From positions 892,828 through 956,827 of the forward strand of contig NZ_CP039865.1 in NCBI RefSeq assembly GCF_005160265.1: a stretch of DNA of 64,000 nucleotides, written 5' to 3'. A program made the translations under genes and the position numbers. This stretch comes from Phreatobacter aquaticus. GTDB lineage: Bacteria > Pseudomonadota > Alphaproteobacteria > Rhizobiales > Phreatobacteraceae. Shown piece by piece: positions 44,450 to 59,434 of the stretch (positions are counted from its first letter, which is position 1; each line of letters begins with the position of its first letter). The notes under the pieces are model-generated. The model was not told the origin of the DNA, made no database searches, and worked only from the letters and a program-made list of their open reading frames with translations.

Positions 44450-44652
44450 GGCAGCGCCTCGGGACCGATGTCCCACTGCGCCCACCGTGCCTCAGCGTGG
44501 TTAATTGCCGGTTACTGCACGGGAAAAGGCCGTGATGCTCGCTCGCCCCTGCCAGATGCGATCTCGCTCGTTCCGTGCACCGGTGATGCGAAGGCCGGCG
44601 AGGCGGCACAACCTGCCTCCTCGCCGGCACTCACTCGATCCGGTAACGAGCG

Positions 44653-44826
44653 TCAGGCTCGCCGTATGAATCCTGCGATCGCCGAGATGACGAACAGGAC
44701 GATAGCGACCCAGAACAGCATCTGTGCGCCACTCATCGCGGTTCCGGCCACGCCGCCAAATCCAAGAAAGGCTGCCACGAGAGCAACGATCAGAAAAATG
44801 ACGGCCCAATGCAGAAGGCTACCCAT
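44653..44826 (-). CDS. DUF1328 (YtjA-like) small membrane protein
   Basis: 57 residues with two helices: [20 protein letters not shown] and then [20 protein letters not shown], ending FIRRA. This matches the DUF1328/YtjA family of stress-associated small membrane proteins. AAGGAG lies 8 bases before ATG 44826. A second family member is at 51499-51666. A near-consensus EcfG promoter (44905-44929) is upstream. Confidence 0.88.
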
Positions 44827-44904
44827 CACTCTCTCCTTATGTTCATTTGCGATGTTGATGTCGAAACCGCATCAATCTTGCGGCGCCTGTTTGACATCGA
44901 CATC

Positions 44905-44929
44905 TACGCATCGCCCGCGTGTTTGTTCC
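44905..44929 (-). promoter_or_regulatory. Probable EcfG promoter (GGAAC-N16-CGTA)
   Basis: On the minus strand GGAAC (44929-44925) and CGTA (44908-44905) are separated by 16 bases. One mismatch to the CGTT -10 element. It is 78 bases upstream of the DUF1328 gene in the right direction. Confidence 0.5.
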
Positions 44930-44955
44930 CGGCCCGCCCGAGGCCAACTCGCTGA

Positions 44956-45174
44956 TCAGCCGGAAAGGCTGTAGCGCTTGCGTGGCTTGGGGGGCGCACC
45001 GCGCACGAGAGCGTCCTTCCCCGTTTCGGGGCTGTCAGCGAAATTGCCCGGGCCGGCGAGGTCGCCCTGTTCCCGGTCCTCGCCCTGATTGCCGCGAGAG
45101 GTTCCGCCGCGCTTGTTCGGCTCGTCGCGCCCCACCGCTCCTGGCGGGCCTCCGGGAAATGGATTGTTGGCCAT
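44956..45174 (-). CDS. Small hydrophilic, probably disordered protein
   Basis: 72 residues, MANNPFPGGPPGAVGRDEPN onward, rich in Gly, Pro, Arg and Asp with no hydrophobic core, ending ALVRGAPPKPRKRYSLSG. No family recognised. GGAGGAGG immediately upstream of ATG 45174 makes a very strong ribosome site, and a GGAAA-N16-CGTT site lies about 60 bases upstream. Composition is like that of small desiccation/osmotic-stress proteins, which fits the setting but is inference. Confidence 0.7.
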   Translation of the reverse strand: MANNPFPGGPPGAVGRDEPNKRGGTSRGNQGEDREQGDLAGPGNFADSPETGKDALVRGAPPKPRKRYSLSG

Positions 45175-45232
45175 GGTTGCCTCCTCCGCTCGCGCTGGAT
45201 AGCGCCCGGGAGCCGGGTGCATCTGGAACCTC

Positions 45233-45257
45233 AACGTTCGGGGCCGCTGGTATTTCC
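45233..45257 (-). promoter_or_regulatory. Probable EcfG promoter (GGAAA-N16-CGTT)
   Basis: Minus-strand GGAAA (45257-45253), 16 bases, CGTT (45236-45233). One mismatch in the -35 element. Faces the 72-residue gene ending at 44956. It pairs back-to-back with the exact site at 45293-45317. Confidence 0.55.
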
Positions 45258-45292
45258 AGATGAGCACGATAATTTTCTCTTGCCCGCAGCCT

Positions 45293-45317
45293 GGAACCAA
45301 TCGCACGGTGCGGCGTT
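45293..45317 (+). promoter_or_regulatory. EcfG promoter (GGAAC-N16-CGTT)
   Basis: Exact match: GGAAC at 45293-45297, 16 bases, CGTT at 45314-45317. Oriented toward the HWE histidine kinase gene, whose start is 161 bases downstream. Shows that the kinase is likely a member of the regulon it may control. Confidence 0.75.
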
Positions 45318-45478
45318 TTCGGGGTTGGCGTGCGAGACGGTCGCGATCGTTCGACAGCCGTGATTCCCATCAGGGCAGCAGCCATCGACATGACACAGCC
45401 GACATTTCAAGACGCGGCAGGCGACGACATCTTTCCCCTGTGCTCGCCATCTCTTTTCGCTCGCGTCGAGGACAGGCC

Positions 45479-46471
45479 ATGATCACCTCGTCCAAGGCCG
45501 CGCTCGACTATCAGGCTCTGCTCGCCTCGATCGTCAGTTCCTCCGCCGATGCGATCGTCAGCAAGGACCTCAACGGCATCATCACCTCCTGGAATACCGC
45601 GGCTGAGGCAATTTTCGGCTATGCGGCGGAAGAGATCGTTGGGCAACAGGTCACCGTGTTGATCCCGCCCGACCGGCTCTCCGAGGAAGAAGCCATCCTC
45701 AACACCATCAAGCGCGGCAGCCGCGTGAACACGTTCCGGACGATCCGCCTGCGCAAGGACGGCGCACCCGTCCACATCTCGGCGACGATCTCGCCGATTT
45801 TCGACGCCGCCGGAAACATCATCGGCGCCTCCAAGATTGCCCGCGATGTCACCGAGTGGCAGCGCAACGAAGACATCCGCACCATGCTGATGCGCGAGGT
45901 CGTGCACCGGTCGAAGAACATGCTGGCGCTGGTCGAGGCGATCGTCCGCCAGACGGTCCGCCGCTCCTCGCCCCAGGATTTTGCCAAGCGGCTCTCGGCG
46001 CGGCTTCAGTCGATGGCGGCGAGCCAGGATCTGCTGGTCCAGGAGAATTGGGCCGGCGTGCCGATCAAGACGCTGGTGAAGAACCAGCTCGCCTATGTCG
46101 ATGATCTCGCGGGATCGCGGATCGTCTCGAGCGGCCCCGATCTGCTGTTATCCCCGGTTGGCGCACAGGCCCTTGGAATGGCGCTCCACGAATTGTCGAC
46201 CAATGCCTTGATCTTCGGTGCGCTCTCCACCGAACACGGACAGGTCGACCTGCGCTGGAATGTGGGGACCGGCGACACACCCCGTTTCACCATCAGCTGG
46301 CAGGAAACGGGCGGGCCGCCGGTGACTGAACCGACAGAATTCGGCTTCGGCCAGGTCGTGCTGATCCGCATGACCGAAGCAACCCTTCACGGCAAGGTCA
46401 CTTATGCCTTCACCGCCGAGGGCGTCACCTGGCGGCTGGACACCCCACTGGACGCGGTCCGCGCGGCCTGA
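45479..46471 (+). CDS. PAS-domain HWE-family sensor histidine kinase
   Basis: 330 residues, no membrane segment, so cytosolic. The PAS domain (about 10-125) reads LLASIVSSSADAIVSKDLNG, WNTAAEAIFGYAAEEIVGQ and GASKIARDVTEWQRNE. The kinase core has the HWE/HisKA_2 phospho-acceptor in REVVHRSKNMLALVEAIVRQ, the N-box HELSTNALIFGALS and a late GFGQVVLIRM glycine region. HWE/HisKA_2 kinases commonly phosphorylate PhyR, and phyR lies 5 kb away. An exact EcfG promoter lies upstream. ATG 45479 with GAGGACAGG; the longer reading is unsupported. Confidence 0.9.
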   Translation: MITSSKAALDYQALLASIVSSSADAIVSKDLNGIITSWNTAAEAIFGYAAEEIVGQQVTVLIPPDRLSEEEAILNTIKRGSRVNTFRTIRLRKDGAPVHISATISPIFDAAGNIIGASKIARDVTEWQRNEDIRTMLMREVVHRSKNMLALVEAIVRQTVRRSSPQDFAKRLSARLQSMAASQDLLVQENWAGVPIKTLVKNQLAYVDDLAGSRIVSSGPDLLLSPVGAQALGMALHELSTNALIFGALSTEHGQVDLRWNVGTGDTPRFTISWQETGGPPVTEPTEFGFGQVVLIRMTEATLHGKVTYAFTAEGVTWRLDTPLDAVRAA

Positions 46472-46474
46472 CGC

Positions 46475-46729
46475 TCAGGGCGCCGACGCCTTGACCTTAC
46501 CGGTCGAACGGACCGGCTTGCCGACCTTGGTCGGCGCTGACACCGCCGAGACCGGGTCGCTGGCAGGAAACGAGGCCTCAAGAGCTCGTGTCAGTTCGGC
46601 GTCCTCCTTGGCGTTCGCCTCGGTCTTGGGCATGATCGGTCCCGGCCCGGCGATGGCCTCGTCGAACTCCTTAGTGCCCTCGCTCTGCAGCTTGTCGGCT
46701 TCGCGGCTCGCCTTGGTGTGGATGGTCAT
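46475..46729 (-). CDS. Small hypothetical protein with FPASDP motif
   Basis: 84 residues, hydrophilic: MTIHTKASREADKLQSEGTK, then ELTRALEASFPASDPVSAVS and a basic tail GKPVRSTGKVKASAP. The ALExSFPASDPxS motif recurs in small alphaproteobacterial proteins of unknown role. GGGAG precedes ATG 46729. An exact EcfG promoter (46754-46779) lies 24 bases upstream, so it is probably a general stress gene. Confidence 0.78.
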   Translation of the reverse strand: MTIHTKASREADKLQSEGTKEFDEAIAGPGPIMPKTEANAKEDAELTRALEASFPASDPVSAVSAPTKVGKPVRSTGKVKASAP

Positions 46730-46753
46730 GACAATCTCCCGTTGCCAAGGGCA

Positions 46754-46779
46754 AACGCGGGCACCTGTCGTTCGGTTCC
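46754..46779 (-). promoter_or_regulatory. EcfG promoter (GGAAC-N17-CGTT)
   Basis: Minus-strand GGAAC (46779-46775), 17 bases, CGTT (46757-46754). Exact match; 24 bases before the start of the 84-residue gene at 46729. Confidence 0.75.
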
Positions 46780-46805
46780 CTTGCCGCCCGATCCCACATG
46801 ACAAA

Positions 46806-46830
46806 GGGTGCGAGCCAATGGCTCGCACCC
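46806..46830 (-). terminator. Perfect hairpin, probable terminator of the PRC-barrel gene
   Basis: GGGTGCGAGCC and GGCTCGCACCC pair over 11 bases with a 3-base loop. On the minus strand it is followed by only a short TTTGT run. It lies 61 bases beyond the PRC-barrel stop and before the next promoter. Confidence 0.5.
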
Positions 46831-46890
46831 TCCACGACAGTGCCGAAGGTGGGGGACAATCCGGCGCCGACGATTGGCCGGCGCGGCGTG

Positions 46891-47286
46891 TCACATCATG
46901 TAGGGACCGGCGCCGTAATAATCGAAAACGCTCTTGCCGTACTTGCGGTCGCTCCAGTCGGGCTCGCCGTCCGCGCGATAGCTCGGCGCATTCTCCAGCC
47001 GTTCGCGGGTCAGCGGCACGACATAGCCACCGCGCTCGGAATCGTACTTCAGCGTGCTCCACGGCAGCGGATGATACTGCTCGCCGATGCCCAGGAAGCC
47101 GCCGAACGACATCACGGCATAGACGACCTTGCCGGAGATCTTGTCGAGGATGACGTCATGGATCTCGCCAAGATGCTCGCCGGCGCTGTTGTACACTTCG
47201 GTCCCGACCACCTTGTCAGCCGCGATGATCGTCGTGTGACCCGAACCGGTGGCCGAGCCGGCAGTTCCCGTAGTCTGATTGTGCAT
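46891..47286 (-). CDS. PRC-barrel domain protein
   Basis: 131 residues. A Thr/Gly-rich lead (NQTTGTAGSATGSGHTTI) is followed by the PRC-barrel: IIAADKVVGTEVYNSAGEHL, GEIHDVILDKISGKVVYAVM, then HPLPWSTLKYDSERGGYVV. The C-terminus has SYRADGEPDWSDRKYGKSVF and a tyrosine-rich end. Such proteins are frequent in rhizobial general stress regulons. AGGAGG is at the right distance from ATG 47286 and an exact EcfG promoter lies 49 bases upstream. Confidence 0.88.
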   Translation of the reverse strand: MHNQTTGTAGSATGSGHTTIIAADKVVGTEVYNSAGEHLGEIHDVILDKISGKVVYAVMSFGGFLGIGEQYHPLPWSTLKYDSERGGYVVPLTRERLENAPSYRADGEPDWSDRKYGKSVFDYYGAGPYMM

Positions 47287-47335
47287 GATGTCCTCCTGTG
47301 ATGGCTGGGACGCCCTGCGGCGCCGATACAGGACC

Positions 47336-47361
47336 AACGTGCCCGGTCGGAACATTGTTCC
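47336..47361 (-). promoter_or_regulatory. EcfG promoter (GGAAC-N17-CGTT)
   Basis: Minus-strand GGAAC (47361-47357), 17 bases, CGTT (47339-47336). Exact match, reads into the PRC-barrel gene. It is back-to-back with the exact site at 47401-47425, 39 bases away. Confidence 0.78.
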
Positions 47362-47400
47362 AGCGCACATCAGATCGGCGGCATGGCTTCCCGCTGCACT

Positions 47401-47425
47401 GGAACGAAAGACGCACCGCAGCGTT
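47401..47425 (+). promoter_or_regulatory. EcfG promoter (GGAAC-N16-CGTT)
   Basis: GGAAC at 47401-47405, 16 bases, CGTT at 47422-47425. Exact match, 55 bases before the ABC transporter start. Confidence 0.75.
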
Positions 47426-47480
47426 GTGAAATCCGGGCCTGCCTCTCGGTCCGTTTTGACCCTCGACAAACCGGTGCTTC

Positions 47481-49289
47481 ATGACCTCTTCCGACGACTC
47501 CGTCCCGGAGACCGCTCCGGCTCGCGCTCGCGCGCGCGAATTCTTCCGTGTCGCACTCGGCTTCTGGACAGGTGAGACCCGCCTGCGGGCATGGATCCTC
47601 ACCGGCCTCGTACTCACGCTCGCCGGACTGCAGATCATCGCGCAGGTCGGACTGAACGCGTGGCAGCGCATGTTTTTCGATGCCCTTGAGCAGAAGTCAG
47701 TGCCGGCCGTCATGGCAGCGGTCGGCTGGGTGCCCCTCGCCGTCGGCTTCTCGGCCGTCACGCTGTCCGGCCTGGTGATCGCGCGGATGGTGCTGCAGGC
47801 GCGCTGGCGCGAATGGCTGACGCGCCATCTTGTCGGCTGGTGGATTGCCGATCAGCGCTATTACCGGCTCGGCTTCGTCGCCGAGGAGCAGACCGCACCG
47901 GAATTCCGCATCGCCGAGGATGTCCGGCTGGCGATCGAACCGCTGGTCGAATTCCTGCTGGGTCTGATCACCGCGACCATCACCGCGCTCACCTTCGCGG
48001 CCATCCTCTGGCAGGTCGCGGGATCGTTGCCTGTCACCATCGGCGGGGCGACCTACGAAATCCCCTTCTACATGGCGCTGGCCGCAATCCTCTATGCCGT
48101 CGTCGCATCCCTTGCCGCCTATGTCACTGGCCGGCCGCTGGTGAAGAAGATCTCGCACAAGAACGAGATGGAGGCCCAGTTCCGCGCCGAGATGACGCGG
48201 CTCCGCGAGAACGCCGAGAGTATCGCGCTGATCGGCGGCGACAGCGACGAACGCGCATCGGTCTACGAAAATTACGGCAACGTCCTGAAAGCCTGGATCA
48301 GCGTCATCCGTCAGCAGGGCGTGATCGCCATGGTGATGAACACCAACGGCGCCCTGTTCCCCATCATCCCGCTTCTGCTGGTCGCGCCGAAATACCTGTC
48401 CGGCGACCTGACGCTCGGCGGTGTGATGCAGGTGGCCGCTGCCTTCAGTGCCGTTCAGGCCGCACTCATCTGGTTCGTCGACAACTTCGTCCGCCTGGCC
48501 GAATGGTATGCCTCGCTGACCCGCGTCGACGAACTGGTCGAAGCGATGGAGGATCTCGACATCGGCACGATCATGGAGGGCGAAACCCAGATCGAGCTCG
48601 GCGAGAGCCCGGATGACGCCATCCATATCGACAACCTGTCGCTTGCCCATCGCAACGGTCGGGTGGTCATCGCCGATGCGTCGGTCATCATCAAGGCTGG
48701 CGAAAAGGTCCTGATCACCGGCGAGAGCGGCACCGGAAAGAGCACGCTGATCCGCGCCCTTGCCGGGCTGTGGCCCTGGGGCTCCGGCTCGATCAAGGTG
48801 CCCGCCAACCGCAAGATCGCCTTCGTGCCGCAGAAACCCTACATCCCGATGGGCACGCTGCATGCGGCCCTCGTCTATCCCGAGGCCGACGCGAAGGTGG
48901 ACGCGGCCATAGTCCTCGGCGCACTCAACCGTTGCGGGCTCGAATATCTCGCAAAACGCCTCGACGACGAGGATCAGTGGGACAAGACCCTGTCGGGCGG
49001 CGAGCGCCAGCGCGTGGCCTTCGCCCGCCTCCTTATCCAGAAGCCCGACATCATCATTCTCGATGAGGCCACGTCGGCTCTCGATGAGGGCAGTCAGGAC
49101 AAGCTGCTGACCCTCCTGAATGAGGAACTGAAGGAATCGACCGTTGTCAGCGTCGGTCATCGCGCCGGCCTCGAGGCCTTCCATACCCGCAAGATCGAGC
49201 TGGAACGCCGCCCTGCCGGCGCCCGGATGACGTCGGTCTCGATCGGCCATTCGCTTTGGCGCCTACTGGGGATCGACGCCGCCCGCTAG
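47481..49289 (+). CDS. BacA/SbmA-like ABC transporter (fused permease-ATPase)
   Basis: 602 residues. The permease half has six helices in the SbmA_BacA/ABC_membrane_2 arrangement, with FFDALEQKSVPAV in the first loop and YYRLGFVAEEQTAPEFRIAE, then AEWYASLTRVDELVEAMEDL at the junction. The ATPase half carries Walker A GESGTGKST, signature LSGGERQRVAFARLL, Walker B IIILDEATSALD and switch His in SVGHR. Relatives (BclA, YddA) import peptides or very long acyl chains in rhizobia. Substrate here unknown. ATG 47481; an exact EcfG promoter precedes it. Confidence 0.9.
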   Translation: MTSSDDSVPETAPARARAREFFRVALGFWTGETRLRAWILTGLVLTLAGLQIIAQVGLNAWQRMFFDALEQKSVPAVMAAVGWVPLAVGFSAVTLSGLVIARMVLQARWREWLTRHLVGWWIADQRYYRLGFVAEEQTAPEFRIAEDVRLAIEPLVEFLLGLITATITALTFAAILWQVAGSLPVTIGGATYEIPFYMALAAILYAVVASLAAYVTGRPLVKKISHKNEMEAQFRAEMTRLRENAESIALIGGDSDERASVYENYGNVLKAWISVIRQQGVIAMVMNTNGALFPIIPLLLVAPKYLSGDLTLGGVMQVAAAFSAVQAALIWFVDNFVRLAEWYASLTRVDELVEAMEDLDIGTIMEGETQIELGESPDDAIHIDNLSLAHRNGRVVIADASVIIKAGEKVLITGESGTGKSTLIRALAGLWPWGSGSIKVPANRKIAFVPQKPYIPMGTLHAALVYPEADAKVDAAIVLGALNRCGLEYLAKRLDDEDQWDKTLSGGERQRVAFARLLIQKPDIIILDEATSALDEGSQDKLLTLLNEELKESTVVSVGHRAGLEAFHTRKIELERRPAGARMTSVSIGHSLWRLLGIDAAR

Positions 49290-49311
49290 ACGATCGGTCA
49301 CGGGCCGCACC

Positions 49312-49336
49312 GGAACCTTGCGGCCCGCGCTCTGTT
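49312..49336 (+). promoter_or_regulatory. Possible EcfG promoter (GGAAC-N16-TGTT)
   Basis: GGAAC at 49312-49316, 16 bases, TGTT at 49333-49336; first base of the -10 differs. It is 33 bases before the 77-residue gene. Confidence 0.45.
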
Positions 49337-49369
49337 GATGCTCCAGATGGTCACATCCTGGAGCCAGAC

Positions 49370-49603
49370 ATGTCGATAAAGTCGCGCCTGATCCTGCCGA
49401 CACTGATGTTCACGGCCGCCATGCTGGCGGTGCTCGCCACCTGCTTCCTCAGCCTGGCGCTGCAGCCCTCCAGCCGCTTCGCGCCCGACGAGCGCGTCGG
49501 AGCCGCCGGCCCGAACACCGTGCTTGCCATCAATACACGCGCCGCCACCGAGACGCTCGACTTCGCCCTTCCGGCCAGAGCCGACCGCAACACTGATCGC
49601 TGA
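49370..49603 (+). CDS. Small single-pass membrane or secreted hypothetical protein
   Basis: 77 residues. A signal-anchor helix (LILPTLMFTAAMLAVLATCF, residues 7-26) is followed by a polar tail (SSRFAPDERVGAAGPNTVLA). No family is recognised. It starts at ATG 49370, with CTGGAG 10 bases upstream, and precedes a bidirectional terminator shared with ecfG. A near-consensus EcfG site lies just upstream. Confidence 0.65.
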   Translation: MSIKSRLILPTLMFTAAMLAVLATCFLSLALQPSSRFAPDERVGAAGPNTVLAINTRAATETLDFALPARADRNTDR

Positions 49604-49609
49604 ACCGAC

Positions 49610-49644
49610 GAAGCCGCCCCGGTTGCCCAGGGCGGCTTCTCTCT
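49610..49644. terminator. Bidirectional terminator between the 77-residue gene and ecfG
   Basis: GAAGCCGCCC and GGGCGGCTTC form a 10-pair stem around a 10-base loop, followed by TCTCT. It lies between two convergent stops (49603 and 49664). Confidence 0.75.
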
Positions 49645-49663
49645 AGGCGGCGAGTGGGGGGAC

Positions 49664-50221
49664 TCAGCCGCCCGAGGCTACGGGTGTGCGCTGCAGGGCA
49701 GCGGTGGTCTTGCGATCCGGCCCGTATTCATTCGCACCATCGATCGACAGGATCTCGGCGAGCTTGGCGCGGGCACGATTGACGCGGCTCTTCACCGTGC
49801 CGACCGCGATGCCACAGATATCGGCCGTCTCCTCGTAGGAGAGGCCGCTGGCCCCGACCATGATCAGCGCTTCGCGCTGCTCCTCGGGAAGCGTGGCGAG
49901 TGCCTTCCGGAAGTCGGCGAGGTCGAGATGGCTCTCCTGCGAACCATGGGTCGCCAGCCGCTCGGTATAGGTGCCCTCGCTGTCCTGAATCTCGCGGCCG
50001 CGCTTGCGGTAGAGCGAGAAATAGGTGTTGCGCAGGATGGTGAAGAGCCAGGCCCTGAGACTGGTGCCGGGCGTGAACTTGTCGACATTCGACCAGGCTT
50101 TCAGGAGCGTGTCCTGGACGAGGTCATCGGCCAGTTGCATCGATCCCGACAGCGAGGTTGCGAAGGCGCGAAGATTCGGAATTTCCGCAATCAGACCGTC
50201 CCTGAACGTGTCACCGCTCAT
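49664..50221 (-). CDS. ecfG: General stress ECF sigma factor EcfG
   Basis: 185 residues, ECF15 type. Region 2: LADDLVQDTLLKAWSNVDKF and FTILRNTYFSLYRKRGRE. Region 4: ALATLPEEQREALIMVGASG then TADICGIAVGTVKSRVNRAR. It is released from NepR when PhyR is phosphorylated, and recognises GGAAC-N16/17-CGTT-type promoters. Its ATG 50221 overlaps the nepR 3'-end by 11 bases, giving coupled synthesis of sigma and anti-sigma. Transcribed from an exact copy of its own promoter at 50477-50501. Confidence 0.95.
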   Translation of the reverse strand: MSGDTFRDGLIAEIPNLRAFATSLSGSMQLADDLVQDTLLKAWSNVDKFTPGTSLRAWLFTILRNTYFSLYRKRGREIQDSEGTYTERLATHGSQESHLDLADFRKALATLPEEQREALIMVGASGLSYEETADICGIAVGTVKSRVNRARAKLAEILSIDGANEYGPDRKTTAALQRTPVASGG

Positions 50222-50426
50222 CGGCTTGGCCCTTTGCCTGTTCCTGGCGTTCCTTCGCCTCGAGTTGGGCAAGAAGAACCAGAAACTTGTCGGGGATCGG
50301 TGCCTTGATCAGGTCGTCGTAATGCGCCTTGAGCGAGCGACCGATCATGTCCTGAATGCGCTGGTCAAGAACTGGCTCGAAGACCTCAGGTTCAGACTTG
50401 CGATCTTCGTCTTCTGGATTCATCAT
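50211..50426 (-). CDS. nepR: Anti-sigma factor NepR
   Basis: 71 residues, hydrophilic and helical. The conserved core reads QRIQDMIGRSLKAHYDDLIK followed by APIPDKFLVLLAQLEAKE, matching NepR anti-sigma factors that sequester EcfG and are removed by PhyR. ATG 50426 has GAGG 5 bases upstream; an ATG at 50456 (10 residues longer) lacks a ribosome site and would leave a leader of only about 14 bases after the predicted transcription start. Confidence 0.93.
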   Translation of the reverse strand: MMNPEDEDRKSEPEVFEPVLDQRIQDMIGRSLKAHYDDLIKAPIPDKFLVLLAQLEAKERQEQAKGQADER

Positions 50427-50476
50427 CTGCGCCTCGACACCTTTCGATGCGGTCATACACACCGAACCGCGATAAG

Positions 50477-50501
50477 AACGCCAGGTTTCGGCAAAGGTTC
50501 C
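50477..50501 (-). promoter_or_regulatory. EcfG promoter of nepR-ecfG (GGAAC-N16-CGTT)
   Basis: Minus-strand GGAAC (50501-50497), 16 bases, CGTT (50480-50477). Exact match, 51 bases before the nepR start. Indicates positive autoregulation of the sigma factor. Confidence 0.85.
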
Positions 50502-50580
50502 ACGAAAATTCAAAAATATATCGCTTGCCAAGCGAGGGGCCTGAATGGTTGCCTGCGGCCATCCCATGGAGGCTCTTCGC

Positions 50581-51366: not shown

Positions 51367-51415
51367 GGCAACAGCCCGTCGCCTTGCGGCGACCGATCAT
51401 TGGCCGATAAACGAG

Positions 51416-51448
51416 AAAGCCCGGGAGGAAAACCTCCCGGGCTTTTTC
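51416..51448. terminator. Bidirectional terminator after phyR
   Basis: AAAGCCCGGGAGG and CCTCCCGGGCTTT form a 13-pair stem with AAAA loop and T run (A run on the left), so it can also end the DUF1328 message from the other side. Confidence 0.92.
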
Positions 51449-51498
51449 AATGCCGAACTGCAGCTCGGCGGCAGGATGGCGAAGGTTTGCGCCCGCCG

Positions 51499-51666: not shown

Positions 51667-51748
51667 GTCGATCTCCAGCAGGAACGGTCACAGCGTCCAC
51701 GTGTGACGTCAGCGGCAAAGGGCGCGCTGCCGCGCCCCCTGACCTTGC

Positions 51749-52147
51749 TTACCTCCGCAACTCACGCCCGATCATCGCGGCAAGCAGCATGACGCCGCCG
51801 AGAGCCGCGACCTTGATTCCGGGCTTCGACATCACCGCGGTGATCGCGACCGGAGCAACGGCCAAAGCGGTCTCCGCCATCGCGTTCGGACGCCGCGGGC
51901 GCGATTGCAGAAAGGCGGCGACTGCGAAGACCAGCATCGCCACGACCATCAGGCCGAAGGCAATCACGAGGCTGGCCATGACGGCATCGTAGCGCACCGA
52001 CAGCACGACATGGAGCGCGGCCAAGCCAAACCCGATCCCAGCCATCACAGTCAGGGCAGCGAGCAGGTAGAGGCCATGGATCAGCAGACTTCTCCTCACG
52101 GAGACGCCGGCTTCAGCGAAGGCGAGTGCGCCCAGAGCCCGCAACAT
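51749..52147 (-). CDS. Phage-holin-3-like (DUF1469-type) membrane protein
   Basis: 132 residues. Two strong helices (about 23-50 LLIHGLYLLAALTVMAGIGF and 58-85 ASLVIAFGLMVVAMLVFAVA) plus a third near the end (VAALGGVMLLAAMIG). Pattern fits the holin-superfamily proteins that neighbour DUF883 genes in many bacteria and are not phage lysis proteins. It begins one base after the DUF883 stop, so both are expressed from the 52540-52564 promoter. Confidence 0.7.
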   Translation of the reverse strand: MLRALGALAFAEAGVSVRRSLLIHGLYLLAALTVMAGIGFGLAALHVVLSVRYDAVMASLVIAFGLMVVAMLVFAVAAFLQSRPRRPNAMAETALAVAPVAITAVMSKPGIKVAALGGVMLLAAMIGRELRR

Positions 52148-52148
52148 G

Positions 52149-52469
52149 TCAGCGCGAGACCATCAGACCCGCGATCAGACCCACGACGGCCGCCACGCCC
52201 AGCGTGCGCATCGGGTGAGCCTTCAGTTCATCCGCGATCAGCTTCTGGAGCTCGCTCGCCTGGTCCTTGGCGGCATCGACCATCGCCTCGGCATCAACGC
52301 CCGCGCTCTTGAGCTTCTGGTTGACGTTGGCCGCCGCATCGCCAGCCGAGCGCAGCATGCTCTCGCCGATCTCGGCGCCTTCGCGGAGACCAGCCTGGGT
52401 CCGCTCGACGACCTCGTCAGCGGCAGCCCTGACGCCGGAGTGATTGTTGCCGGCAAAATTGTTCGACAT
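52149..52469 (-). CDS. DUF883 (ElaB/YqjD-like) family protein
   Basis: 106 residues: a helical, alanine-rich amphipathic part (AGLREGAEIGESMLRSAGDA, ASELQKLIADELKAHPMRTL) and a C-terminal helix (GVAAVVGLIAGLMVSR) that anchors it in the inner membrane. YqjD/ElaB relatives bind ribosomes in stationary phase in E. coli. AGGAGACG precedes ATG 52469. Likely EcfG-regulated and coupled to the holin-like gene. Confidence 0.82.
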   Translation of the reverse strand: MSNNFAGNNHSGVRAAADEVVERTQAGLREGAEIGESMLRSAGDAAANVNQKLKSAGVDAEAMVDAAKDQASELQKLIADELKAHPMRTLGVAAVVGLIAGLMVSR

Positions 52470-52529
52470 GTCGCGTCTCCTGAAATGGGGTGGGGATGGG
52501 TTCGCAGCAGGACAGGCCGTGCCGCGCTC

Positions 52530-53687
52530 TCAGTCTGACAACGCTGACACGGCCGATCGGTTCCGCTGGCCCGAGAGCGGGACCTCCCTCCGCGAGACAT
52601 CGCCGGAATCGCCGTGATCCCTGATGGTCTCGATGGCGACCATCGCGATGAGCAGGAGCGGCGTGGACAGAACAGCGCCGACCGGCCCCCAGAGCCACAG
52701 CCAGAAGATCAGCGACAGGAACACGAGGAACGGCGGCACCGTCAGCCGATTGCCCACGATGGCCGGTGTCAGGGCATTCGATTCGATGAGATGGAGGCCA
52801 TAGAACACGAGAGCCGGCCAGAGGGCGCCAAGCGTCGTGGTGGCAGTCAGAAGCCCCGCGGCGAAGACCAGTCCTGCCACGACAATCGGGCCAATCAGAG
52901 CCAGAAAGTTGAGGAGAAACGCCATGGCCCCCCAGAAGATCGGGAACGGCAGGCCGGCGATCCACGCGATAATGGTCATGGCGACGCCAAGACCCAGATT
53001 GATCGCCGTCACGACGCCGAGATAGGCGGTGACCTGTTGCTCGATCTCATTGAAGAAGCTGCTGGCGGATTTCCTGACATCGCCACCGAGGCAAAGCCTG
53101 AGGATGCGCACCTTCAAGACCCGGCGGGTGGCGAGGTAGAAATAGGTCGTGGCCAGGAAGATCAGCACGCCGCTCATCGCCGTCGTCGACGAGATCGCGA
53201 AATGCATCAGCGGGCTGCCATTGGCCACGTTCACTTCCAGGCCGGACGAGCTGGAGAAATGCGTGAGCGCTCCCTCCATCTGCTTCACGAGCTCCAGGAT
53301 CGGCTGCAGCTTGGTCTGAAGCGCGGCCATCATGGCTGGCCATTGGTCGCTCCAGGCGGCAAGCGGCACCGCCAGTAGACCAATGGCTCCGGTGCCAAGT
53401 GCGACGACCGCCAGAACCAGAATAGCGGCAGCCAGGTGCTGGGGAACGCCATGGCGCACCAACCGGTCAGTTGCCGGCCCCAGGACCAGGCCGAAGATGG
53501 CGCCGGCAATCACCGGCAAGGCGATCACCCGCGTGACATAGAGAACGGCTGTGAACAGGATCAGGAAGATCCCGAGCGCGGCGTAGCGCAGCACAGGATC
53601 ATGCCCATCATCTTCGGGGGCCACATCCGGTTCGTCGATTGGCGGCTCGGAACGCGCGCGTAGACCGGACAAACTCTCCCACGCCAT
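52530..53687 (-). CDS. AI-2E-family transporter (PerM-like)
   Basis: 385 residues with about eight helices. LGIFLILFTAVLYVTRVIAL opens the permease; IISSTTAMSGVLIFLATTYFY-like, GVAMTIIAWIAGLPFPIFWG and LTVPPFLVFLSLIFWLWLWG are family blocks. The cytosolic N- and C-termini are polar. The name reflects AI-2 export by one member; the substrate is unproven, and others move sodium or protons. ATG 53687 with GGGGAG upstream. It has an exact EcfG promoter, and its own 3'-end contains another for the next gene. Confidence 0.88.
   Translation of the reverse strand: MAWESLSGLRARSEPPIDEPDVAPEDDGHDPVLRYAALGIFLILFTAVLYVTRVIALPVIAGAIFGLVLGPATDRLVRHGVPQHLAAAILVLAVVALGTGAIGLLAVPLAAWSDQWPAMMAALQTKLQPILELVKQMEGALTHFSSSSGLEVNVANGSPLMHFAISSTTAMSGVLIFLATTYFYLATRRVLKVRILRLCLGGDVRKSASSFFNEIEQQVTAYLGVVTAINLGLGVAMTIIAWIAGLPFPIFWGAMAFLLNFLALIGPIVVAGLVFAAGLLTATTTLGALWPALVFYGLHLIESNALTPAIVGNRLTVPPFLVFLSLIFWLWLWGPVGAVLSTPLLLIAMVAIETIRDHGDSGDVSRREVPLSGQRNRSAVSALSD
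52540..52564 (-). promoter_or_regulatory. EcfG promoter (GGAAC-N16-CGTT) inside the AI-2E gene
   Basis: Minus-strand GGAAC (52564-52560), 16 bases, CGTT (52543-52540). Exact match, within the last 12 codons of the AI-2E gene and 70 bases before the DUF883 start. Confidence 0.75.
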
Positions 53688-53729
53688 GGTCGCACTCCCC
53701 GGCCGGCTTCGACTGAGCGGCAGCGCAAC

Positions 53730-53754
53730 AACGTGGCGGCGCGGCTCCGGTTCC
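53730..53754 (-). promoter_or_regulatory. EcfG promoter (GGAAC-N16-CGTT)
   Basis: Minus-strand GGAAC (53754-53750), 16 bases, CGTT (53733-53730). Exact match, 42 bases upstream of the AI-2E gene. Confidence 0.78.
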
Positions 53755-53889
53755 AAGCGTGCAAGGGCGGTCACGGCGAAGGGCTGGGACGCGCGCGCCC
53801 GATGCAGAGCTTGGGGGCCCCGCGGGACCAAGGAGCGCCGTGGATAACCCCGCCGGTCACACCTGCTGCCACGAAAAGACGATCTGACC

Positions 53890-53915
53890 GGAACTTCGCT
53901 GCATCCCGGGGGGTT
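53890..53915 (+). promoter_or_regulatory. Probable EcfG promoter (GGAAC-N17-GGTT)
   Basis: GGAAC at 53890-53894, 17 bases, GGTT at 53912-53915. One mismatch in the -10. It is 35 bases before the csbD-like gene. Confidence 0.5.
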
Positions 53916-53950
53916 GATCAGGTCTCACCCCAGGAACACAGGAGGTTTCG

Positions 53951-54157
53951 ATGAATTGGGACCGCGTTGAAGGCAATTGGAAGCAGCTCAAGGGCAACGT
54001 CAAGGAACAGTGGGGCAAGCTCACCGATGACGACCTCGACGTGATCGCCGGTCGCCGCGATCAGCTCGAGGGGCGCCTCCAGGAGCGCTACGGCTACGCC
54101 AAGGACAAGGCGAAGCAGGAAGTCGACACCTGGTTCTCCAGTCGCAACTGGAACTGA
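53951..54157 (+). CDS. CsbD-family stress protein
   Basis: 68 residues, MNWDRVEGNWKQLKGNVKEQ, GKLTDDDLDVIAGRRDQLEG and RYGYAKDKAKQEVDTWFSS. The full CsbD signature of small hydrophilic helical proteins, induced by general stress (sigma-B in Bacillus). ACAGGAGG upstream of ATG 53951 is a strong ribosome site, and a rho-independent terminator follows 12 bases after the stop. Confidence 0.93.
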   Translation: MNWDRVEGNWKQLKGNVKEQWGKLTDDDLDVIAGRRDQLEGRLQERYGYAKDKAKQEVDTWFSSRNWN

Positions 54158-54168
54158 CCAGCATCCAG

Positions 54169-54206
54169 AGCCCGGCCGGGATTGTCCCGGCCGGGCTTCT
54201 CTTTTG
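54169..54206 (+). terminator. Rho-independent terminator after csbD-like gene
   Basis: AGCCCGGCCGGG and CCCGGCCGGGCT form a 12-pair stem with ATTGT loop, followed by TCTCTTTT. Confidence 0.9.
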
Positions 54207-54224
54207 ACGACGGAGACGCGCACC

Positions 54225-54428
54225 ATGGCCGACGACCGGATACTCGAACCCGACAATATCCAGACGCCGCCACGCTACACGGGTGACCGGCCACAGGTCC
54301 TGACGTCCGACACGGCGCGGCAGGGGCCGGCAGGACGCCCCGTCCTGTTCGTGCTCGTGGCCAGCCTGTTGGGCGCGGTGCTCGTGCTTGGGCTCTACTG
54401 GATCTTCTGGGTTCGCACGATCATCTGA
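54225..54428 (+). CDS. Small single-pass membrane protein
   Basis: 67 residues: polar N-terminal part (MADDRILEPDNIQTPPRYTG) and a C-terminal helix (LFVLVASLLGAVLVLGLYWI), tail-anchored, ending FWVRTII. No family recognised. GGAG lies 10 bases before ATG 54225. It follows the csbD terminator and may depend on readthrough or its own promoter; none was recognised. Confidence 0.65.
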   Translation: MADDRILEPDNIQTPPRYTGDRPQVLTSDTARQGPAGRPVLFVLVASLLGAVLVLGLYWIFWVRTII

Positions 54429-54485
54429 GGGAGCGGGTCTCAGCATTCACCACCAGCACCTCGATCCGGCGACGCCCGAGCCGGA

Positions 54486-54869
54486 TCAAAGCTCCGCGAA
54501 GATCGCCACGATATCGTCCTGCGTGTAGGGCTTGTTGAGACGTGGAACGTTGGGCAGAGGCTTGCCATCGGCACCGGAGGCGCCGTACCCGGTCGCCAGG
54601 ACCGGACGCACCGACGGGAACCGCCTCCGCATCTCGTCGATCAACTCAAGGCCACTCATGCCTGGCATCGCCTGATCGGTGACGACGATCTGGATTGCCG
54701 GATTCTCGGCAAGGCATGTGATCGCCTCGGAACCGGAGCTGGCCTCGTGAACGACATGGCCAAGTTCCTCCAGCATGGCGACCATGCCGAAGCGGACCAG
54801 CGCGTCGTCATCCACCGCCAGGACCGTGAAGACACCGCTTGAGTTCGAGTTGTCGGGACCATCGGTCAT
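54486..54869 (-). CDS. Single-domain response regulator (receiver)
   Basis: 127 residues, receiver only. TVLAVDDDALVRFGMVAMLE carries the acidic pair, IQIVVTDQAMPGMSGLELID the phospho-Asp, VLATGYGASG the Thr region and RLNKPYTQDDIVAIF the conserved lysine. No output domain. As a neighbour of the PhyR system it may act as a phosphate sink or as a competing target of an HWE kinase, similar to SdrG-type receivers in related bacteria; this is inference. ATG 54869. Confidence 0.85.
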   Translation of the reverse strand: MTDGPDNSNSSGVFTVLAVDDDALVRFGMVAMLEELGHVVHEASSGSEAITCLAENPAIQIVVTDQAMPGMSGLELIDEMRRRFPSVRPVLATGYGASGADGKPLPNVPRLNKPYTQDDIVAIFAEL

Positions 54870-54977
54870 CGCCGTGAACTTCTCTGCTCGATTCGAAGGA
54901 AAAGACGGCCCGCAGGCAAGGCGGAGGCTTGATCCTATCACCTGGTGGCAACAGGGCGCGACCGGCTCACGCGGGTG

Positions 54978-55217
54978 TCAGCCACCCGAAGGCGCTCCGC
55001 GTGAACCATAGACCCGGCAGAACCGGCGGCCGCGATCCGTCAGCCCCCAGCGCCCATCCTGATGAACGACAAGTCCAAATTTCTTCAACCGATCGATCAG
55101 ATTTGTATCCACGATCTTTGTTGCGCCCTTCTCAAAATCAAGAAGGCTATTCTTCTCGATCTCGTTGAGATCGCCCGGCTGTATGTCCAAAGCTGGAAAT
55201 AATTGCTGAAGCACCAT
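54978..55217 (-). CDS. Small hypothetical protein, winged-helix-like
   Basis: 79 residues, MVLQQLFPALDIQPGDLNEI onward. The segment TNLIDRLKKFGLVVHQDGRW followed by GLTDRGRRF reads like the recognition helix and wing of a small winged-helix protein, but no family is recognised. The base composition is more AT-rich than its neighbours. GGAGAAACT precedes ATG 55217. A GGAAC-N16-CGTA site lies 35 bases upstream. Confidence 0.6.
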   Translation of the reverse strand: MVLQQLFPALDIQPGDLNEIEKNSLLDFEKGATKIVDTNLIDRLKKFGLVVHQDGRWGLTDRGRRFCRVYGSRGAPSGG

Positions 55218-55252
55218 AGTTTCTCCATCGCCTGAATTTGAGCCATGAATAC

Positions 55253-55277
55253 TACGCACAGGCGCAATTCCTGTTCC
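55253..55277 (-). promoter_or_regulatory. Probable EcfG promoter (GGAAC-N16-CGTA)
   Basis: Minus-strand GGAAC (55277-55273), 16 bases, CGTA (55256-55253). Same -10 variant as at 44905. Faces the 79-residue gene. Confidence 0.5.
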
Positions 55278-55325
55278 ATTTGGCGGCGAATATGGCGAGA
55301 GGGAGCCTAAGATTTCACAGTCCGG

Positions 55326-55350
55326 GGAACCTGGGCAGAGGGCGGGTGTT
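55326..55350 (+). promoter_or_regulatory. Probable EcfG promoter (GGAAC-N16-TGTT)
   Basis: GGAAC at 55326-55330, 16 bases, TGTT at 55347-55350. Faces the secreted protein at 55384, 33 bases on. Confidence 0.5.
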
Positions 55351-55383
55351 GATGGAGCAGGCTCAAGCCAGAAGGAGGGAAAC

Positions 55384-55734
55384 ATGTCCCGCACGCTCCT
55401 ATCCGCAATCGCCCTGTCCCTTGCGACGACGTTTGCCTATGCCCAGACCACTCCGCCGGCCCAGCCGCCGGCCGCAACCACCCCAGCCATGCCCGCACCG
55501 CCAGCGGCATCGACAGCGCCGGCGACGCCACCGGCCATCAACACGGCACCGCTCGAACCTGGCGCCAACAGCTTCACCGAGGCCCAGGCTCGCCGCCGCC
55601 TGGAGGATGCCGGCCTGAGCGCGATCACCGACCTTGCCAAGGATGACCAGGGTGTCTGGCGTGGCCGCGCAACCCGCAATGGCACCGCCGTCGCCGTCGG
55701 TCTCGATTTCCGCGGCAATATCGCTGCCCAGTGA
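55384..55734 (+). CDS. Secreted proline-rich protein with PepSY-like C-terminus
   Basis: 116 residues. A Sec signal (residues 1-20, cut after FAYA), a proline/alanine/threonine-rich linker (TTPPAQPPAATTPAMPAPPA), then a small domain NSFTEAQARRRLEDAGLSA, DDQGVWRGRATRNGTAVAVG, LDFRGNI. That end resembles PepSY/YPEB-like domains. Probably periplasmic, function unknown. GGAGG precedes the ATG by 8 bases. Close to the next gene (38 bases), so they may be cotranscribed. Confidence 0.75.
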   Translation: MSRTLLSAIALSLATTFAYAQTTPPAQPPAATTPAMPAPPAASTAPATPPAINTAPLEPGANSFTEAQARRRLEDAGLSAITDLAKDDQGVWRGRATRNGTAVAVGLDFRGNIAAQ

Positions 55735-55772
55735 CAACGCGCCTCTCATCCCCCCCAACCCAGGAGAGACCC

Positions 55773-56327
55773 ATGACCATCACCGTTTCCGCCCTCTATG
55801 ACAGCTATCGTGACGCCGCCGCCGCGGTGGAACGCGTCGAGGCCGCAGGTGTGTCGTCCAGCGCCATCAGCCTGGTGTCGAATGACGCGACCGCTGATCG
55901 GGCCGGCTATTCCGACTATGCAGCAACCGAGCCTGGCGCAGCTGACAGCGCCGGCACAGGTGCCGGTCTTGGCGCCGCGGTTGGCGCGGTCGGTGGCCTG
56001 CTCGCCGGCCTCGGCATCATTGCCATTCCCGGTGTCGGTCCGGTTGTTGCCGCAGGCTGGCTCGCCTCAACCCTGGTCGGTGCCACCACGGTCGGCGTTG
56101 CCGGCGGTGTGCTTGGCGCACTGGTTGGTGCAGGCGTCGATGAGACGGATGCCCGGTCTCACGTCGAAGGCCTTCAGCGTGGCGGCACACTCGTCCATGT
56201 GAGGGTCGCCGAAACCGACGCTGCCCGCATCCAGGCGATTCTCGATTCCGGCAGCGCAGTTCGTCCGAGCCTGAACACTGCGCTGCCCGGCGAGACGATC
56301 GGCCGCGTCCCCGGTGGTCCTCTCTGA
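55773..56327 (+). CDS. General-stress-like glycine-rich membrane protein
   Basis: 184 residues. The N-terminal ferredoxin-like part (TVSALYDSYRDAAAAVERVE) has the general stress protein 17M/heat-induction type start, and the centre holds a long Gly-Ala-Val hydrophobic hairpin (GAAVGAVGGLLAGLGIIAIP, VVAAGWLASTLVGATTVGVA). The C-terminus VEGLQRGGTLVHVRVAETDA repeats the small domain. Likely membrane-inserted; role unknown. AGGAGA lies 6 bases before ATG 55773, and a strong terminator follows. Confidence 0.78.
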   Translation: MTITVSALYDSYRDAAAAVERVEAAGVSSSAISLVSNDATADRAGYSDYAATEPGAADSAGTGAGLGAAVGAVGGLLAGLGIIAIPGVGPVVAAGWLASTLVGATTVGVAGGVLGALVGAGVDETDARSHVEGLQRGGTLVHVRVAETDAARIQAILDSGSAVRPSLNTALPGETIGRVPGGPL

Positions 56328-56358
56328 TTGAGGTCAATTAGTCGGCTCAGAAATACCG

Positions 56359-56387
56359 AAGGGGGCGCTCATGGCGCCCCCTTTTTC
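56359..56387 (+). terminator. Rho-independent terminator
   Basis: GGGGGCGC and GCGCCCCC form an 8-pair stem with a 5-base loop, then TTTTTCT. Ends the 55384-56327 unit. Confidence 0.9.
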
Positions 56388-56427
56388 TGTTCCAGCCGGT
56401 CCCGGTTGGTCGATGGCGCGCGATCCG

Positions 56428-56634
56428 TCAGGCCTGAGATTTTGACGTTCCGGGATCGACAAGGCCCCTCTCGAACGAACGGACCACTGCCCGACCAACC
56501 GCCTCACGGTTCTTGTCGTCTTCGCAAAAGACACCGAGCCTTTCGCAATCCTCATCGAATTTGCGCCGCATCAGCCTCATGTCGTCAGGGCCGAAAAGAC
56601 AGCGCTTGGGTTCAGTTGCGGTATCGTCAGCCAT
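56428..56634 (-). CDS. Small hypothetical hydrophilic protein
   Basis: 68 residues: MADDTATEPKRCLFGPDDMR then MRRKFDEDCERLGVFCEDDK and REAVGRAVVRSFERGLVDPG. Three cysteines but no recognised motif. GGGAGG lies 6 bases before ATG 56634. Convergent with the terminator at 56359. No clear EcfG site upstream. Confidence 0.65.
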   Translation of the reverse strand: MADDTATEPKRCLFGPDDMRLMRRKFDEDCERLGVFCEDDKNREAVGRAVVRSFERGLVDPGTSKSQA

Positions 56635-56726
56635 GGCGTCCTCCCTGACGCAACGCCTTTCCGGCGTATGTTCATCGATATCGTTCTTGGCCCGGCCCGC
56701 AGCGCACCACGGGCCGGTTTCGACAC

Positions 56727-56888
56727 TTACAACCGGTCCGGTGGGTTGGATGGATCGGCCGGCGGAATGGGCTGAGGCATCGGATCCGGCTGGTCGGGCT
56801 GGGGCGGAATCGGCGGCGGTGTCGGCCCGGGAAACGGCTCGGGCACCGGAACGCCTGCGATCTGATCGGTCTGGTCATGTCGTGCCAT
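56727..56888 (-). CDS. Very small proline-rich protein
   Basis: 53 residues, about one third proline: MARHDQTDQIAGVPVPEPFP, then repeats of PxPIPP and QPDQPDPMPQ up to the stop. No hydrophobic segment. Probably unstructured, with no family recognised. GGGAG lies 8 bases before ATG 56888, and a GGAAC-N16-GGTT site lies 27 bases upstream, which argues that it is expressed. Confidence 0.6.
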   Translation of the reverse strand: MARHDQTDQIAGVPVPEPFPGPTPPPIPPQPDQPDPMPQPIPPADPSNPPDRL

Positions 56889-56914
56889 GCTGCTCTCCCT
56901 TGTTCAGAGACATG

Positions 56915-56939
56915 AACCCGCGGTCCCAGCTATCGTTCC
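56915..56939 (-). promoter_or_regulatory. Possible EcfG promoter (GGAAC-N16-GGTT)
   Basis: Minus-strand GGAAC (56939-56935), 16 bases, GGTT (56918-56915). Faces the proline-rich gene. Same -10 variant as before csbD. Confidence 0.45.
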
Positions 56940-56971
56940 GCTCATCCCAGGTGCAATGTCGACGCACCCGG

Positions 56972-56996
56972 TGAACGGAAATGCGGCTCAGGCGTT
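56972..56996 (+). promoter_or_regulatory. Possible EcfG promoter (TGAAC-N16-CGTT)
   Basis: TGAAC at 56972-56976, 16 bases, CGTT at 56993-56996. One mismatch in the -35. It is 67 bases before the transglutaminase gene. Confidence 0.4.
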
Positions 56997-57063
56997 GACG
57001 CCGGACTCAAGGCCGACACGGTCAGCAGGAACGGCGCTTTCCGCCGACACGACGAGACACAGC

Positions 57064-57930
57064 ATGGATCTGACTGTTCGGCACGCCACCACCTATCAAT
57101 ATCCAACCATGGTCGATTTTGGTCCGCACCGGCTCATGCTGCGGCCGCGCGACAGCTTCGACATGCGGATTCTCGATACCAGCCTGCAGATCACGCCGGC
57201 CGCCCATCTGGAATGGATCCACGACGTCTACGGTAACCCGGTGGCTATCGCGACGTTCTCGCAAATGAGCGATCGCCTGGAGGTTGTCAGCAAGCTTGTG
57301 CTCCGCCGCTACGCATCGACACTGCCGAACACCTATTCCAATTCCCGGCAGTCGCACTTCACGCCGCGCTACACCGACGGCGAGCGGATTGTGCTCCAGC
57401 CCTATCTCTCACCAGCGACCGACGACGACGGTCGCATGGCCGAATGGATGGCGGCGGTCCTGGCTCAAGCTCCGGCCGAGAGTGCGCCGCTGACAGCGGT
57501 CTTCAATGCCATCCACACTGGCTTCGGTTACAGCGTGCGCTATGAGGAAGGGACCCAGGATCCGATCACGACCATTGCCGTGAAGGCCGGCTCCTGCCGC
57601 GATCTTGCCTGGCTGTTCATCGAGGCGGCGCGGCGGCTGGGCTATGCCGCACGGTTCATCACCGGCTATCTCCACGACAGCGTCGGCCCTGGCGGCGTGC
57701 GCTCGACTGTCGGTTTCACCCACGCCTGGGCGGAGGTTTTCATTCCAGGCGACGGATGGGTCGAGTTCGACCCGACCAATGCGCTGGTCGCCGACCCGAA
57801 CCTGATCCGCGTGGCCATGGCCCGCGTGCCGGGCGATGCCTCGCCAATCTCCGGCAGCTTTGTCGGACCCGCCGGAACGTCAGCAGCCCTGTTCGTGGGC
57901 GTTGAGATCAGCGCTGCCGAAAGCACCTGA
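57064..57930 (+). CDS. Transglutaminase-like family protein
   Basis: 288 residues. N-terminal beta domain (MDLTVRHATTYQYPTMVDFG, PHRLMLRPRDS) precedes the transglutaminase core, whose catalytic triad is seen as Cys in VKAGSCRDLAWLFIEAARRL, His in GFTHAWAEVFIPGDGW and Asp in VEFDPTNALV. Family members act as cysteine proteases or transglutaminases; some assist peptide or sugar-chain work. Cytosolic, since no signal is present. ATG 57064 matches the usual start; earlier in-frame ATGs give a non-homologous tail. Confidence 0.88.
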   Translation: MDLTVRHATTYQYPTMVDFGPHRLMLRPRDSFDMRILDTSLQITPAAHLEWIHDVYGNPVAIATFSQMSDRLEVVSKLVLRRYASTLPNTYSNSRQSHFTPRYTDGERIVLQPYLSPATDDDGRMAEWMAAVLAQAPAESAPLTAVFNAIHTGFGYSVRYEEGTQDPITTIAVKAGSCRDLAWLFIEAARRLGYAARFITGYLHDSVGPGGVRSTVGFTHAWAEVFIPGDGWVEFDPTNALVADPNLIRVAMARVPGDASPISGSFVGPAGTSAALFVGVEISAAEST

Positions 57931-57950
57931 GCCTCGATACCTCATCTTGC

Positions 57951-59414: not shown

Positions 59415-59434
59415 GGCGATCTCCTCCCGCCACC

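Follow-up and report, generated by a model that had tools for sequence, protein, structure and literature searches.

A regulon island of EcfG-type promoter sites around phyR in Phreatobacter aquaticus, with a core that probably relocated as a unit in the genus

The phyR locus of Phreatobacter aquaticus raises the question of whether a general stress regulator and the promoter-like sites crowded around it form an island that changes chromosomal place as a unit, or whether such crowding is simply the ordinary neighbourhood of this regulator. The locus lies in a stretch of 64,000 nucleotides of contig NZ_CP039865.1 (assembly GCF_005160265.1, positions 892,828 to 956,827), hereafter the window, while positions preceded by C1 are chromosome coordinates. 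The promoter motif, the PhyR/NepR/EcfG partner switch (PMC8103513) and the usual locus of the general stress response (GSR), described as a conserved three-gene arrangement, have been treated in PMC8103513, PMC7083833, PMC6599016, PMC3892343, PMC11411728 and PMC4814048, of which excerpts were considered. Neither a changing chromosomal place nor a relocating regulon island is described in these excerpts (in PMC11411728, ecfG does not occur), and no published account of site clustering or relocation was found in the literature searched, which was mostly open-access and covered part of each result list. An initial annotation of the window had proposed a 12-kb island with seven exact EcfG promoters that moves or evolves as a unit. 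The evidence presented here points to a longer EcfG regulon island, whose core genes probably relocated together in this genus, with other site-bearing genes joining them.

To count the sites, the EcfG-type pattern GGAAC-N16/17-CGTT was scanned together with the reversed motif as a control, using genes called by a simple codon-based caller made for the analysis and domains called with Pfam. A total of eight exact sites were found in the window, seven at 45293-53754 and the eighth at 29214 (+). The seven were those listed initially, each within 350 bp 5′ of a called gene on its own strand, and the eight one-base variants reported with them were about right, since 44600-57100 holds nine one-mismatch sites that precede a gene on their own strand by no more than 300 bp. 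Throughout the genome (4,974,952 bp), 95 exact sites appeared, about 0.24 per 12.5 kb, against 71 for the reversed control, so that many scattered single matches are background; 19 of the 84 exact sites elsewhere in the genome were examined, and 10 of these lay upstream of a gene. The genome maximum of seven exact sites per 12.5 kb was at the phyR island. When 95 sites were randomly placed in 5,000 trials, at least five per 12.5 kb occurred in 49 of them and seven never (the seven span 8.5 kb). Moreover, 31 kb (C1:938120-968229) hold 11 exact sites, the maximum under random placement being eight. A second cluster was found at C1:2,982,163-2,990,356, with six exact sites in 8.2 kb, each preceding a gene on its own strand (DUF3309, transglutaminase and four without a Pfam family). 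Its 20-kb stretch encodes 24 called proteins, and a Pfam scan of all of them revealed neither PhyR nor a sigma factor. The phyR island is, then, the densest place for exact sites in the genome, with one near equal. The initial annotation had named an equal density elsewhere as the finding that would speak against its proposal; the maximum is indeed here, but it is nearly matched. A transglutaminase-domain gene is common to the second cluster and the main island (57064).

The limits of the island were set by synteny and not by the motif, which gave a block of 32.3 kb instead of the 12 kb first described. Its right end is at C1:969625, 12.8 kb past the window, and four further exact sites lie beyond the window end (C1:957284, 957348, 961116 and 968229). 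The block comprises 36 called genes, including two HWE kinases, response regulators, hybrid kinases, transporters, small proteins and a trehalose gene row, and its neighbours are a zinc-ribbon/DUF3426 gene on one side and an ABC-type ATPase gene on the other, which is probably ftsE to judge by its sequence. In full context, all 11 exact sites of the block were upstream of a gene (10 when 3-kb pieces served as context), as were 14 of its 27 one-mismatch sites, the other 13 not being so placed. The 54.9 kb of flanks compared had a single exact site, not upstream of a gene, and 14 one-mismatch sites, two of them upstream. Genes on the same strand with gaps of up to 60 bp were then joined into transcription units, and a site was counted if it lay at most 300 bp upstream. 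Sites with up to one mismatch preceded 22 of 30 units in the block vs. two of 35 in the flanks (Fisher p 1e-8), and exact sites preceded 11 and none, respectively. Of the eight block units without a site, five come behind a same-strand gene that has one, which is not the case for phyR, the second DUF1328 gene or the response regulator.

The junction between the DUF3426 gene and the ABC-ATPase gene was searched in eleven congeners (G001 to G011). C1:931305-937332 corresponds to G008:2387202-2393297, and C1:969626-976102 to G008:2393479-2399998; thus, the flanks are 32.3 kb apart in P. aquaticus and 181 bp apart in G008. Using the flanks C1:934113-937332 and 969626-973066 and the G008 junction as query, the junction was empty in seven congeners (G008, G003, G010, G004, G002, G005 and G006), while three had other inserts, namely G007 and G011 (14-15 kb each) and G009, the last scored from the right side alone, on a short contig where a related gene adjoins the right flank. 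The insert of G007 (L166:2515-17321) is restriction-type, with a DNA methylase and a type III restriction-type helicase, and that of G011 (L176/L177) is compact and phage-type, with portal, capsid and terminase genes. Both complete inserts are surrounded by direct repeats, TTAATTGGCGGTTAA (15 bp, G007) and TAATTGGCGGTTA (13 bp, G011), of an attachment-site-like (att-like) core. This core, or a slightly changed version of it, is present once in the empty junctions read (G008, G010, G005, G004 and G002), and the fragmented genome of G001 was mixed, one contig showing the empty junction and another continuing from the core into different sequence. On the left side of the P. aquaticus block, homology extends as far as the last base of TTAATTGCCGGTTA; on the right side, it resumes about 8 bases past the expected core end. 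The stress island was seen at this junction in none of the eleven congeners. Since a discrete block stands where the sister species have an empty or otherwise filled junction, its core probably moved as a unit in the genus.

The neighbourhoods of phyR, read over 40-60 kb in each of nine congeners, give the other side of this comparison. In none of the nine was phyR at the P. aquaticus junction. The genes near it (with exact-site counts in brackets) were DUF1328 in eight (6), PRC-barrel in five (5), the ABC transporter in eight (7), DUF883 in six (6), AI-2E in five (2) and transglutaminase in seven (4), and 67 of the 74 exact sites in these nine stretches were upstream of a same-strand gene. 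At least 12 of the 123 exact sites of G008 lay within 19.5 kb around phyR, and at least 11 of the 108 of G007 within 19.7 kb, where 3,000 random placements gave maxima of six and seven per 20 kb, respectively; the 40-kb stretch of G005 had just two. For G007, dense exact-site groups were also noted away from phyR, at C1:605258-625588 (7 in 20 kb), 1014040-1033100 and 3364870-3374214. The row formed by AI-2E, DUF883 and the 132-amino-acid (aa) gene is on one side of phyR in P. aquaticus, G008 and G003 and lies opposite in G007 and G011; in G004, G002 and G006, some of it is found on this opposite side too. The row is shuffled in place. As for the surroundings, what flanks the island on the left in G007, G004, G005 and G011 corresponds to C1:796627-812003 in P. 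aquaticus and to 2232186-2246409 in G008, without the island in either. The right flank of the G008 island has no gene order in common with P. aquaticus, G007, G004 or G011, and the surroundings of phyR in G003 are those of G008. The flanks therefore differ between P. aquaticus, G008/G003 and the G007-type genomes, which gives the phyR island at least three places in the genus. The transporter operon to the right of the G007 island was considered as the ancestral right flank and rejected: it is found at C1:3.79-3.81 Mb in P. aquaticus and is therefore no marker of an old place.

The most probable reading is that of an EcfG regulon island whose core has shifted as a unit to another chromosomal place within this genus. 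The ABC transporter, ecfG, nepR, phyR, DUF883 and AI-2E genes with their neighbours would have moved together, and further genes with EcfG-type sites would have joined them before, with or after the move. Much of this core also stands in the P. aquaticus order outside the genus: three of six Bosea-group loci (L035-L037) have ABC, ecfG, nepR, phyR, DUF883 and AI-2E arranged in that way. Their transglutaminase gene lies at the ABC end, a placement seen in the other congeners but not in P. aquaticus; L038 and L039 lack part of the row, and L040 is short. An entire stress programme thus appears capable of relocating in one piece. The block presumably entered the junction rather than left it, with insertion through the att-like core, and its genes would depend on EcfG; arrival in a single event and horizontal transfer may have been involved. 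The initial proposal of an island that moves or evolves as a unit is partly supported, by a core kept together in different places of the genus; the clustering itself is not confined to this genus. In operation, HWE/HisKA2 kinases (two HWE ones in the island) would phosphorylate PhyR, phosphorylated PhyR would remove NepR from EcfG, and the freed sigma factor would initiate transcription from GGAAC-N16/17-CGTT-like sites that precede roughly three quarters of the block units, with its own operon, the trehalose row, transporters and small proteins among its targets.

Several observations weigh against this reading of a relocated core. A Pfam scan of all 36 block genes returned no integrase, transposase or relaxase, and no second core copy stands at the right edge of the block, the longest word common to both ends being 10 bp. 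In the congener inserts, the integrase evidence is weak: PF00589 was matched below the cut-off (E 1.7e-4 for the G007 gene by the right flank, E 1.2e-4 for its G009 relative), and the G011 relative of that gene, 53% identical, had no Pfam match. A healed scar was not seen in P. aquaticus: the left flank that the island has in the other congeners lies at C1:788338-799903 without it, and no right-flank gene was found adjoining this flank. Moreover, most genes of the right half of the block are not near phyR in the congeners and therefore may have joined singly, phyR itself has two-mismatch sites only, beside the exact site of nepR-ecfG, the near-equal second cluster has no PhyR, and no outgroup roots the junction. 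In addition, a tblastn search of the block for integrase remnants with seven insert proteins gave nothing below E 0.039. Insertion targeted to a tRNA was considered and rejected, with no tRNA at the P. aquaticus or G008 junction and no Rfam family in 34000-64000.

It is possible, though on balance we do not favour it, that P. aquaticus and G008/G003 got the island from another lineage, perhaps Boseaceae-like, displacing the version of the other congeners. Identities were compared for the 36 P. aquaticus genes that had reciprocal best matches in both G008/G003 and the remaining congeners. The 27 flank genes among them put the three groups (P. aquaticus, G008/G003 and the remainder) at almost equal distances (median difference +2, with the two largest differences, +35 and +43 from apparently non-orthologous pairs, kept in the median), whereas for nine island genes P. 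aquaticus is closer to G008/G003 by a median of +10 points. Its PhyR is 73-76% identical to those of six Bosea-group loci (L037 and L039 being titled just 'Rhizobiales bacterium') vs. 70-74% to seven other congeners. A PhyR+EcfG tree of 32 rows groups P. aquaticus, G008 and G003 with Bosea at a support of 89/77, which is not strong. The G+C content at third codon positions (GC3), a weak kind of evidence, is 0.788 in 25 island genes vs. 0.835 in 112 genes elsewhere (p 2.8e-6). However, monophyly of the genus was not rejected in this tree (approximately unbiased test, p_AU 0.116), and the other congeners are on a long stem, where faster change would give the same distances. Furthermore, DUF883 (-3), DUF1328 (+1) and nepR (+2) do not follow the island pattern, and GC3 is also low in the islands of G008 and G004, not in that of G007. 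Doubtful, too, is a portable stress programme in which the switch, the sensors and the promoter-matched targets would co-travel, enter an att site before the presumed ftsE gene and replace the resident locus by inter-lineage transfer.

An unlikely explanation is a vertically inherited GSR locus in its ordinary neighbourhood, with targets usually near phyR and surroundings changed by ordinary rearrangement. What speaks for it is that, across the order and not in P. aquaticus alone, sites commonly cluster around phyR. The best 80 of at least 563 outside phyR loci (1.52 Mb, L042 among them being the record of the congener G005) had 338 exact sites vs. 32 for the reversed control, and 275 of these were upstream of a same-strand gene, compared to 38 of 234 for seven permuted controls. 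Considering loci of at least 20 kb, 43 of 61 had two or more sites beyond 350 bp from phyR, while the reversed control gave four. The density per 10 kb decayed from 28.8 sites within 250 bp of phyR to 4.6 at 1-2.5 kb and 0.39 at 7.5-10 kb, the permuted controls giving 0.2-0.4. The trend was the same with one locus per genus (21 genera, picked from record titles), 16 of which had a site beyond 350 bp and five did not. Nevertheless, rearrangement alone would not set the block edge on an att-like core of which two congener inserts have a copy on either side, at a junction empty in seven, nor would it make the site limits match the synteny limits.

That the island was original at the junction and was then lost from there in other lineages is improbable. 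The near equidistance of the flank genes in the three lineages favours it, and because of this equidistance polarity is not fixed. Against it, the seven empty junctions belong to both other lineages, with the core or its variant where read, G008/G003 have the island in a third context, and none of 17 flank proteins was found in the 80 outside loci (tblastn, at least 40% identity over 60%, loci reaching up to 10 kb from phyR). Finally, chance matches in a GC-rich genome, which may well account for the scattered single sites, are hardly conceivable for the island given the clustering, the orientation and the sites at the same genes in congeners.

The core locus is standard, as first described, with phyR divergent from nepR and ecfG according to Pfam and the gene calls. 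PhyR is over the cut-off for PF22029, PF22233 and PF00072, and among the six listed of eight PhyR matches in the genome, the island copy is the only one of full length. EcfG (PF04542 and PF08281) is 80-82% identical to that of the six Bosea-group loci, and its gene overlaps nepR in a putative operon. A kinase of about 550 aa, which adjoins ecfG in all nine congeners read (HisKA_2 in G008 and G007), is absent beside ecfG in P. aquaticus (49603-49664); the two HWE kinases elsewhere in the block, both with HRXXN, may substitute for it. A divergent pair of exact sites (C1:957284-957372) separates the trehalose gene row from a ROK-family gene, which suggests that the stress response controls trehalose synthesis and sugar phosphorylation jointly. 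Outside the block, minus-strand open frames of 1612 and 1827 aa were noted at window positions 6378-11216 and 29373-34856. The features of the block are collected in Table 1.

Table 1. Features of the stress block and its left edge, in window coordinates unless marked C1.
Feature	Position	Strand	Basis or remark
Att-like core TTAATTGCCGGTTA at block left edge	44501-44514	+	Homology to G007 stops at right end of core
Block portion within window	44515-64000		Continues 12.8 kb to C1:969625
DUF1328 protein	44653-44826	-	Pfam; one-mismatch site 44905-44929 (-)
Exact site, 162 bp 5′ of HWE kinase gene	45293-45317	+	Motif scan
PAS-HWE histidine kinase, HRXXN motif	45479-46471	+	Pfam and motif
84-aa protein, no family	46475-46729	-	Pfam
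Exact site (N17), 25 bp 5′ of 84-aa gene	46754-46779	-	Motif scan
PRC-barrel protein	46891-47286	-	Pfam
Exact site (N17) for PRC-barrel gene	47336-47361	-	Motif scan
Exact site for ABC transporter gene	47401-47425	+	Motif scan
ABC transporter (ABC_membrane_2, SbmA_BacA, ABC_tran)	47481-49289	+	Pfam
One-mismatch site GGAAC-N16-TGTT for 77-aa gene 49370-49603	49312-49336	+	Motif scan
ecfG, ECF sigma factor (Sigma70_r2, Sigma70_r4_2)	49664-50221	-	Pfam, scanned as 49664-50272
nepR, anti-sigma factor	50211-50426	-	Pfam PF18557
Exact site for nepR-ecfG	50477-50501	-	Motif scan
Two-mismatch candidate CGAAC-N16-GGTT 5′ of phyR	50463-50487	+	Second candidate 50475-50499
phyR, sigma-like domain and receiver	50581-51366	+	Pfam
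132-aa protein, no family	51749-52147	-	Pfam
DUF883-like protein	52149-52469	-	C-terminal region match barely over cut-off
Exact site for DUF883-like gene, overlapping 3′ end of AI-2E gene	52540-52564	-	Motif scan
AI-2E family transporter	52530-53687	-	Pfam
Exact site for AI-2E gene	53730-53754	-	Motif scan
CsbD-like protein	53951-54157	+	Pfam; one-mismatch site 53890-53915 (+)
Single-domain response regulator	54486-54869	-	Pfam; upstream site looked for, none found
116-aa gene and YflT-like gene (YflT under Pfam cut-off)	55384-56327	+	One-mismatch site 55326-55350 (+)
Transglutaminase-like protein	57064-57930	+	Pfam; one-mismatch sites 56913 and 56972 (+)
MFS transporter, GT20 (trehalose-6-phosphate synthase type), GH15 hydrolase, trehalose phosphatase	57951-64000	-	Exact site C1:957284, just past window
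Second HWE kinase, HRXXN	C1:968508-969581		Beyond window; Pfam and motif

If the locus relocates with its regulon, the closeness of the targets to their sigma factor survives relocation, which would point to selection for proximity or to joint transfer. Such a locus would also allow the growth of a large regulon to be followed, because the switch-side genes carry near-consensus sites and the sister species show additions.

With respect to known systems, the block resembles an integrative genomic island in being a discrete block absent at the same junction in relatives, and differs from it in having no recombinase in its 36 genes and no direct repeats at both ends. It shares with the restriction-type and phage-type inserts of G007 and G011 the junction and a left edge at the same att-like core, but it is without an integrase and without a right-hand core repeat. 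Compared with the alphaproteobacterial GSR locus in the excerpts of PMC8103513, PMC4814048 and PMC7083833, P. aquaticus has the same PhyR with its sigma-like domain, NepR and EcfG, the same nepR-ecfG divergent from phyR and the same GGAAC-N16-CGTT before nepR; what differs is the neighbourhood of 30 units, 22 of them with sites, and the several contexts within one genus. Finally, in the supra-operonic synteny segments of which PMC4873041 gives an account in the part considered, co-regulated operons likewise stay near each other across genomes, whereas the P. aquaticus block is marked by promoter-like sites of one sigma factor and includes that sigma factor together with its switch.

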